From positions 1 through 62,625 of the forward strand of contig NZ_JASCQP010000009.1 in NCBI RefSeq assembly GCF_030010555.1: DNA of 62,625 nt, read 5' to 3'. The notes under the pieces were generated by a model. That model had not been told where the DNA came from. It was given only the letters and a program-made list of their open reading frames with translations, and searched no databases. This document shows positions 28,846-29,840 of the stretch, in pieces. A program made the position numbers and the translations under genes. Origin of the DNA: Halomonas rhizosphaerae (GTDB taxonomy: Bacteria; Pseudomonadota; Gammaproteobacteria; Pseudomonadales; Halomonadaceae). How positions within the stretch are numbered: the stretch's first letter is position 1; each line of letters starts with the position of its first letter.

Positions 28846-29586
28846 ATGACCGACCCGCGACACGACGACAAGATGACCGGCCCCGAGAGGCCGGACGCCC
28901 CGCTGCACCGCCGCGGCATCAAGAGCTACGTGCTGCGCGCCGGCCGCATGACCCAGGCCCAGACCCGGGGGCTCGAGGAGGTCTGGCCGCGCCTGGGGCT
29001 CTCCCTCGCCGATGGCCGCCAGGACCTCGATGCCCTGTTCGGACGGCAGGCGCCCCGGGTGCTGGAGGTCGGCTTCGGCATGGGGGCCTCCCTGGTCGAG
29101 CAGGCCGAGCGCCACCCGGACACCGACTTCATCGGCATCGAGGTGCATGCGCCGGGGGTCGGCAAGCTGCTCGACGAGGCCGACAAGCGTGGCCTGACCA
29201 ACCTGCGCGTCTACCGCGAGGATGCCCTGGCGGTGCTCGAGCAGTGCCTGCCCGAGGCGAGCCTCGATACCCTGCAGCTGTTCTTCCCCGACCCCTGGCC
29301 GAAGAAGAAGCACCACAAGCGCCGCATCGTGCAGCCGGCCTTCGTCGAGCTGGTGCGCACCCGCCTCAAGCTCGGTGGCACCCTGCACATGGCCACCGAC
29401 TGGCAGGCCTATGCCGAGTGGATGGCCGAGGTGATGGACGCCGCCCCCGGCATTGCCAACACCGCCGGCACCGAGACGGCCCCCTATGTGCCACGCCCCG
29501 AGTTTCGCCCGCTGACCAAGTTCGAGGCGCGTGGCGAGAAGCTGGGCCACGGCGTCTGGGACCTGATCTTCAAGCGGGTCGACTGA
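28846..29586 (+). CDS. trmB: tRNA (guanine-46-N7)-methyltransferase
   Basis: TrmB methylates G46 in the variable loop of tRNAs with S-adenosylmethionine. The 246-residue protein has the SAM motif [20 protein letters not shown] (about residues 69-88), then [16 protein letters not shown], and the highly specific [16 protein letters not shown] (about 146-161). It agrees with E. coli TrmB (239 residues) throughout. The minus-strand small-RNA candidate ends about 70 bp beyond its stop codon. Confidence 0.95.
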
Positions 29587-29655
29587 CCTCCGCCCTGCTG
29601 TTCTCGTTCGGCGCCCCCGGAATCCGTGTCAGGCGCCGGGCGCCGTCGTCCGGAC

Positions 29656-29683
29656 AAAAGAAAGCCGCCCCGGGAGGGGCGGC
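29656..29683 (-). terminator. Intrinsic terminator of the small-RNA candidate
   Basis: The 8-bp stem GCCGCCCC/GGGGCGGC with a 4-nt loop (29664-29683) is followed on the minus strand by TTTCTTTT. On the plus strand the stem is followed by AAAGGGACC, so it does not serve trmB. Confidence 0.82.
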
Positions 29684-29770
29684 AAAGGGACCGTGACTAG
29701 CAATGAGAGGGAGAAACCAGGGCAGGAAACTGGCGGGTTCCTGCCCGGTGTGGCGCCTCATCAACGCCAC
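29656..29770 (-). ncRNA. Candidate Hfq-type small RNA, possibly iron-regulated
   Basis: A predicted 115-nt transcript runs from 29770 down to 29656. From its 5' end it would fold as a 6-bp hairpin (GUGGCG/CGCCAC, loop of 9) and then a 9-bp hairpin (GGGCAGGAA/UUCCUGCCC). About 36 unpaired pyrimidine-rich nucleotides follow, containing CUCUCAUUGCUAGUC, then an intrinsic terminator (GCCGCCCC/GGGGCGGC) with UUUCUUUU. A TTGACA/TACGCT promoter lies at the right distance and a Fur-like box overlaps it. CAUUGCU is shared with the seed region of E. coli RyhB. It lies between trmB and the AEC transporter gene. No database comparison was possible; the call rests on promoter, structure and terminator lining up. 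Confidence 0.65.
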
Positions 29771-29776
29771 GATTTA

Positions 29777-29805
29777 AGCGTAACCATTCTCGTTTGCGCT
29801 GTCAA
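29777..29805 (-). promoter_or_regulatory. Sigma-70 promoter of the small-RNA candidate
   Basis: On the minus strand a perfect -35 TTGACA (29805-29800) is followed by a 17-nt spacer and TACGCT (29782-29777) as the -10. The start would be at about 29770, where the first hairpin of the RNA begins. Confidence 0.65.
29778..29797. promoter_or_regulatory. Fur-box-like sequence overlapping the small-RNA promoter
   Basis: On the minus strand the sequence is GCAAACGAGAATGGTTACGC. By hand alignment 11 of its first 19 bases match the classical Fur box GATAATGATAATCATTATC. It covers the spacer and -10, where Fur binding would block polymerase. Confidence 0.45.
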
Positions 29806-29840
29806 TACAAATGCGAACGCTTTTCGTTAGCAGCGTTTCT

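Follow-up and report, generated by a model that had tools for sequence, protein, structure and literature searches.

Between trmB and an AEC-transporter gene of Halomonas rhizosphaerae, the window (the whole 62,625-nucleotide stretch of DNA that was analysed) carries on its minus strand, at 29656–29805, what we predict to be an unannotated small RNA (sRNA) gene of the PrrF family, with a lineage-specific seed and lying outside the limits of the curated family. The features of the locus are given below; the names of the two neighbouring genes are those of the initial annotation.

28846–29586, plus strand: trmB, open reading frame; convergent neighbour, downstream of the RNA
29656–29770, minus strand: predicted PrrF-family small RNA, about 115 nt; Rfam PrrF positions 1–150 align on 29805–29656 with 35 bits, and our model R1, of which this sequence was itself part, gives it 105.8 bits
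29656–29683, minus strand: intrinsic terminator found by a terminator scan, an 8-bp stem (29683–29664) followed by TTTCTTTT (29663–29656)
About 29719–29684, minus strand: pyrimidine-rich stretch, by direct reading
29690–29703, minus strand: seed segment UUGCUAGUCACGGU, complementary to the sdhC start region (14-nt ungapped pairing with the sdhC of the same genome)
29702–29710, minus strand: CCUCUCAUU, which in relatives is complementary to the acnB ribosome-binding region (AATGAGAGGG in genome G070, AATGAGGG in G006)
29720–29746, minus strand: hairpin 2 (GGGCAGGAA...TTTCCTGCCC), from the predicted fold of this RNA
29750–29770, minus strand: hairpin 1 (GTGGCG...CGCCAC), with changes on both sides in 5 of 8 pairs and 92.7% of cells paired
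29776–29796, minus strand: Fur-like operator over the spacer and −10 (CAAACGAGAATGGTTACGCTT); top window score of the relatives' matrix, 31.6 bits
29777–29782, minus strand: predicted −10, TACGCT, 17 nt from TTGACA
29800–29805, minus strand: predicted −35, TTGACA, by direct reading
29808–29828, plus strand: second, inverted Fur-like operator just upstream of the −35 (CAAATGCGAACGCTTTTCGTT); second in the window by the same matrix, 23.1 bits
29841–30755, minus strand: AEC-transporter gene, open reading frame; upstream neighbour on the same strand as the RNA

Structure, promoter and operators

Direct reading of the minus strand bears out the layout proposed in the initial annotation, namely TTGACA, a 17-nt spacer, TACGCT, two hairpins, a pyrimidine-rich stretch and a terminator, and the predicted transcription start, 29770, is the first base of hairpin 1. 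The predicted fold of the RNA has z = −3.94, with 1 of 200 shuffles folding as well. The terminator scan lists two such sites in 2.3 kb, where shuffles average 1.0, and all four counted pairs of the terminator stem have changed on both sides among relatives. For hairpin 1 and the terminator together, 55 cells have changed on both sides compared with 13.7 in shuffles, and 91.6% of helix cells are paired compared with 35–59% when the structure is slid along the alignment, counts for which the structure was taken from the same alignment that was counted. Hairpin 2 is absent from the RNAalifold consensus of the alignment. A 66-codon open reading frame at 29570–29770 was rejected as a protein because it runs through the terminator and because the trimmed lengths of the 63 copies are spread over the three remainders modulo 3 (28, 19 and 16).

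Two folds of the RNA are nearly equal in energy, at −52.5 and −51.8 kcal/mol. The loop of hairpin 1, UUGAUGAG, is complementary to the seed (29701–29710) and is found in 27 of 28 aligned copies from the genus and in none of 35 others; copies L244, L246 and L248 of the genus lack it. Expected pairs between hairpin 1 and the core amount to about 11 in the 28 genus copies versus 0.5 in the 35 others, and predicted folds leave the core less open in the genus than elsewhere (mean unpaired 0.46 versus 0.76). We do not claim this pairing, since the copy studied here is equalled by 75 of 200 shuffles of hairpin 1 and by 33 of 200 shuffles of the loop.

At the place of the −10, many relatives have TATCTT or TACCTT, and 60 of 63 aligned copies carry a −35-like element together with TA...T at 16–18 nt, the misses being L005 and both copies of L055. 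A sigma-70 scan listed no promoter at the element because TACGCT has three of the six consensus bases and the scan requires four.

The initial annotation had also placed a Fur-like box, matching at 11 of 19 positions, over the spacer and −10. Its letters are present and the operator is conserved in relatives; taken by itself, the box is at chance level and weaker than the relatives' boxes. Counting both strands, 125 stretches have 11 matches, no more and no fewer, to the classical 19-mer, and on the 7-1-7 form the box scores 8/14, a value reached exactly by 344 positions in the window (medians are 9/14 in the genus and 11/14 in the rest of the family). Because many places in the window do as well as the box by itself, the decision had to come from comparison with relatives. 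A matrix built from 61 downstream-operator boxes of relatives, with the box studied here excluded, ranks the two operators of this promoter first and second, and the third-ranked place, away from the promoter, reaches only 6.7 bits; as the matrix derives from homologues of the element, this ranking expresses conservation and is no independent rediscovery. Many relatives also have AATATTCTC(A/G)TTT at the place of the second operator upstream of the −35. The R1 matches outside the family provide an independent test because R1 holds no promoter: in all 16 that were fetched, a Fur box of at least 10/14 on the 7-1-7 form lies just upstream, against a background of 3.6% of 856 stretches. The promoter overlapped by a Fur box that marks the PrrF family is seen here through the operator conserved in relatives, the box of this copy being weak by consensus. 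The genome encodes two FUR-family proteins, one of which matches Fur strongly (153 bits), as well as Hfq.

Homology to PrrF and distribution

Descriptions of PrrF usually come from Pseudomonas, and from Azotobacter under the name ArrF. From its first position to its last, the Rfam PrrF model (RF00444) fits 29805–29656, a stretch that takes in the promoter and the Fur box; the E value, 1.5e-4, refers to 261 bases against 4,227 families. RyhB and NrrF, the other two families named for comparison in the initial annotation, are not among the nine Rfam matches at E up to 10, so of the three it is PrrF that the check brought out. The element and all 61 family genomes fall below the RF00444 gathering cut-off of 90 bits, and the element, at 35 bits, is therefore no member of that family as curated. 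For the same reason, a whole-window Rfam scan at curated cut-offs gave no matches. A 24-bit match to the ylbH leader on the plus strand, antisense to the 3' half of the sRNA, was treated as chance.

The forward match extends to relatives. Twelve loci were chosen from the genus and the sister genus g11, and in each of them Rfam matches PrrF best, at 28.8–47.3 bits; of the 17 matches with E no higher than 0.5, 15 are to PrrF, and the weakest have E = 0.38–0.39. Searched with stricter filters, under which the copy studied here is unlisted, 55 of 61 genomes of the family (f1) match the PrrF model at E ≤ 1, the best with 66 bits and E = 8.4e-11; the weak end of this list is unreliable because 3 of 14 control genomes also matched at that threshold.

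The reverse test is stronger than the forward match. From 60 loci of the family, 58 gave 63 copies (L011 and L017 lacked an exact core), and 48 of the 63 were aligned as transcripts, with promoters excluded and no genome from outside the family, to build R1. Four g11 genomes outside the training set match R1 at E values from 9.9e-16 to 7.1e-23. At E ≤ 0.01, R1 matches 59 of 293 genomes of the order, 14 in the family and 45 outside it. We fetched 16 of the outside loci and submitted 14 to Rfam (L079 and L088 were left out): nine fail the PrrF cut-off and five pass it, L077, L083, L085, L086 and L087, which score 127–163 bits as PrrF. A model without Pseudomonas sequences thus recovers loci above the PrrF cut-off. 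A Stutzerimonas stutzeri record found by its core (L150) likewise passes, at 127.5 bits. Because the PrrF model fits the window and the model of the window's family recovers PrrF-scoring loci, the covariance-model searches agree in both directions and support homology to PrrF.

Conservation and synteny were compared among relatives, as the initial annotation had proposed. In a DNA search at E ≤ 1e-14, the element is present in 57 of 61 genomes of the genus (this one included) and in 53 of the 54 that are near-complete. Among 30 genus loci, again including this one, an AEC match adjoins the element in 29 and trmB in 13; the corresponding counts for 30 family loci are 19 and 10, all loci being at most 3.2 kb. 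The lone near-complete genus genome in which the search missed the element, G060, is also blank for R1. Its sdhC keeps the site described below; the assembly has 270 contigs, and either an assembly gap or a recent loss may account for this.

In a collection of named genomes, a 23-base core pattern occurs in 79 stretches, nearly all from Halomonadaceae genera (Salinicola, Chromohalobacter, Kushneria, Cobetia, Modicisalibacter, Litchfieldella, Halomonas and others) or Oceanospirillum, with two or three core matches in 11 of them. The genome studied here has one R1 match, and four genomes of the genus (G028, G032, G034 and G037) have tandem pairs. In genome G343, five consecutive R1 matches spaced by 277–301 nt lie on contig C3 at 1547585–1548838, a PrrF-like array larger than PrrF1/PrrF2. 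Two genomes of genus g3, G062 and G085 (loci L230 and L239), have weak R1 copies of 27.7–35.6 bits that lack the GCUA(A/G)UCACGG core; L239 has AAGCGAGTCTTTG in its place.

Compared with PrrF1 and PrrF2 of Pseudomonas, the element shares the Fur box over the spacer and −10, the hairpins, the core end GCUA(A/G)UCACGG and the terminator. It differs in its score, in having CAUUG in place of CAUCAGG or CAUCAAG, and in being a single R1 match in its genome, though tandem pairs occur elsewhere in the genus.

Seed sequence and target complementarity

The PrrF core, CUCAUCA-GCUAAUCACGG, is altered in the genus, where GCUAGUCACGG is kept and CAUCA is replaced by CAUUG. Across the alignment, GCUAGUCACGG is invariant apart from one nearly invariant column. 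Outside the genus, 30 loci gave 35 aligned copies, and every one of them reads CAUCAAGCUA(A/G)UCACGG; CAUUGCUAGUCACGG is found in 25 of 28 genus copies and in the sister genus g11 as well. The initial annotation pointed to CAUUGCU as shared with the target-pairing part of Escherichia coli RyhB. As letters the likeness stands, the same 7-mer being present in RyhB. As evidence of kinship we reject it, because the outside copies have the CAUCAAGCUA form, so that CAUUGCUAGUCACGG is derived in this lineage, and because RyhB is absent from the Rfam matches.

The core is complementary to the start of sdhC. With the sdhC of the same genome (GCC GUG AAU AGC AA), it can form a 14-nt pairing with one G-U pair and one mismatch that ranks first of 6,708 positions in the locus. 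This ungapped scoring covered 26 genomes and was anchored on CCGTGA, which is a conditioning; in G075 the pairing extends over 7 nt only. In the three genomes with the changed seed that were scored, pairing with sdhC is two bases longer, and the change may therefore be adaptive.

Without the anchor, all ten bases of CCGTGA-TAGC lay close to the start of sdhC in 35 of 44 PrrF-bearing genomes (23 of 28 in the family and 12 of 16 outside it) and in none of 20 PrrF-negative genomes, and at least nine in 42 of 44 versus 1 of 20, a comparison between related genomes whose groups are not phylogenetically independent and at a site that overlaps conserved codons. PrrF-negative here means genomes of the order for which R1, run with strict filters, gave no match at E ≤ 0.01, and G060 was placed in neither group. 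G062 and G085, which gave no core, were left out of the ungapped sdhC, sodB and acnB scorings and kept in this unanchored comparison.

In short windows the sdhC duplex of this genome reaches −19.2 kcal/mol, equalled by 7 of 1,000 shuffled cores and 227 of 6,000 windows of its own DNA. A first, unrestricted test (42-nt RNA and 100-nt targets) gave no separation, the duplex being equalled by 204 of 300 shuffles and 214 of 500 windows, so that sdhC separates from background in the ungapped and short-window tests only. A genome-wide search of this genome for the complement of the core returned the sRNA itself and two places with three mismatches, against six for a reversed-pattern control.

For acnB, seven genomes that carry the CUCAUC seed have CTTGATGAGGG in the ribosome-binding region; the two variants listed above come from genomes with the CUCAUUG seed. 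Of 25 genomes, 16 reach a pairing score met by 1.3% of 2,325 background windows, a threshold chosen after the scores were seen. Cognate pairs exceed permuted ones, with 58 of 20,000 permutations scoring as high. The acnB pairing of the genome studied here is average (2,951 of 6,000 windows as good). Pairing with sodB is uneven between genomes, reaching 18 of 19 bases in G081, strong in a few, weak in others and moderate in this one. We keep sodB as a possible target in this genome because its own predicted duplex reaches −19.8 kcal/mol and few shuffled cores do as well (18 of 1,000; 173 of 6,000 windows). On complementarity to sdh and acnB mRNAs, a mark of PrrF, the results are mixed: sdhC stands out in this genome and its relatives in the ungapped and short-window tests and not in the first duplex test, and acnB in 16 of 25 genomes and not in this one.

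In one near-complete genome of family genus g19, G078, there is no match to sdhC or sdhD and the sRNA was not found by either model. Upstream of its acnB, a gene that appears to start with ATG, there is no seed-complementary site. This is one case only.

Proposed function, alternatives and significance

Homology to PrrF, conservation of the element, its helices, its promoter and operator, and its complementarity to targets can all be read from the sequences compared here. Taken together, they make very probable the reading of the element as a homologue of Pseudomonas PrrF and a predicted sRNA that is likely to be repressed by Fur, made under iron shortage and able to pair with the sdhC start codon and so lower succinate dehydrogenase. 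The initial annotation had proposed an unannotated, probably Fur-controlled RNA analogous to PrrF; that proposal is upheld and, through the covariance-model searches in both directions, extended from analogy to homology.

From these features we infer transcription, Fur binding, an iron response, use of Hfq and repression of targets, as follows. With iron present, Fur would occupy one or two operators around the −35 and −10 and block the promoter. When iron is short, a transcript of about 115 nt would run from near 29770 to the intrinsic terminator. Its core, UUGCUAGUCACGGU, would pair, likely with Hfq, with GCCGUGAAUAGCAA on the sdhC mRNA, covering the GUG start codon; translation of sdhCDAB would thereby be prevented and the mRNA left open to decay. 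Next to the core lies a segment (CUCAUUG here and CUCAUCAA in other genera) that would pair with the acnB ribosome-binding region in the 16 of 25 genomes noted above. PMC2851614 reports that sdhCDAB, acnA and acnB depend on PrrF in P. aeruginosa.

The same predicted job is known from other RNAs. RyhB of E. coli shares the logic of a Fur-repressed RNA that lowers iron-using enzymes, as well as the 7-mer, and differs in that the element has no Rfam RyhB match at E up to 10 and derives its 7-mer within the lineage. NrrF of Neisseria, for which a reference title in PMC2851614 names sdh targets, differs in being absent from the Rfam matches of the element. BrrF of Burkholderia also has sdh among its targets, according to PMC7377471, which describes it as having no sequence similarity to known Fur-regulated sRNAs.

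BrrF shows that an iron RNA with similar targets can exist without similarity to PrrF, and the element studied here does score below the Rfam PrrF cut-off; it might accordingly have arisen independently and resemble PrrF and RyhB in working only. We consider this very unlikely given the full-length PrrF alignment, the reverse search that recovers loci over the PrrF cut-off, and the GCUA(A/G)UCACGG core and Fur-box promoter layout that are common to those loci, intermediate outgroups and the genus. It is also very unlikely that a PrrF-derived RNA has here left iron control, its operator having decayed and its expression having become constitutive or otherwise regulated. The low 7-1-7 score of the box, and the lower median in the genus than in the rest of the family, would fit such a loss; however, GAGAAT and the second, inverted operator are retained, the site ranks first on the relatives' matrix, and the locus is kept in almost every near-complete genome of the genus.

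Least credible of all is that the element is merely the 3' untranslated region and terminator of the AEC gene with no separate RNA. That gene does precede the element on the same strand, at 35 nt from the −35, and is a near-constant neighbour in the genus, but the element has its own promoter in nearly all aligned copies, occurs in 11 of 30 family loci that have no AEC match within about 1.5 kb, and is found in tandem pairs.

More tentatively, and with rather more doubt than conviction, we propose that PrrF is an iron switch of ancient standing in the order to which Pseudomonas and Halomonas belong. In the Halomonas lineage the seed would have changed from CUCAUCAAG to CUCAUUG, with the acnB site following in some species (CTTGATGAGGG to AATGAGAGGG) and the sdhC pairing gaining two bases. 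The sRNA and its targets would then be co-evolving, and G078 seems to be without both the RNA and sdhC/sdhD. The two seed types, together with their acnB sites, make such sRNA–target co-evolution directly testable.

The iron-saving switch of the PrrF type is likely to extend well beyond Pseudomonas, where its relatives have been hidden by the Rfam cut-off. With PrrF in Halomonadaceae, Oceanospirillum and other families of the order, its likely origin moves back. Among the literature matches listed, which included PMC12096840 and PMC13104616 and lay mostly outside subscription journals, we found no native PrrF in Halomonadaceae. PMC13414033, PMC13101641 and PMC12164125 describe the engineering of Halomonas bluephagenesis by means of the PrrF1 scaffold of P. 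aeruginosa together with an Hfq module; a PrrF native to this species, should there be one, could interfere. More broadly, the presence of PrrF in these families leads us to expect iron-sparing regulation of the TCA cycle in halophiles that serve as industrial hosts.
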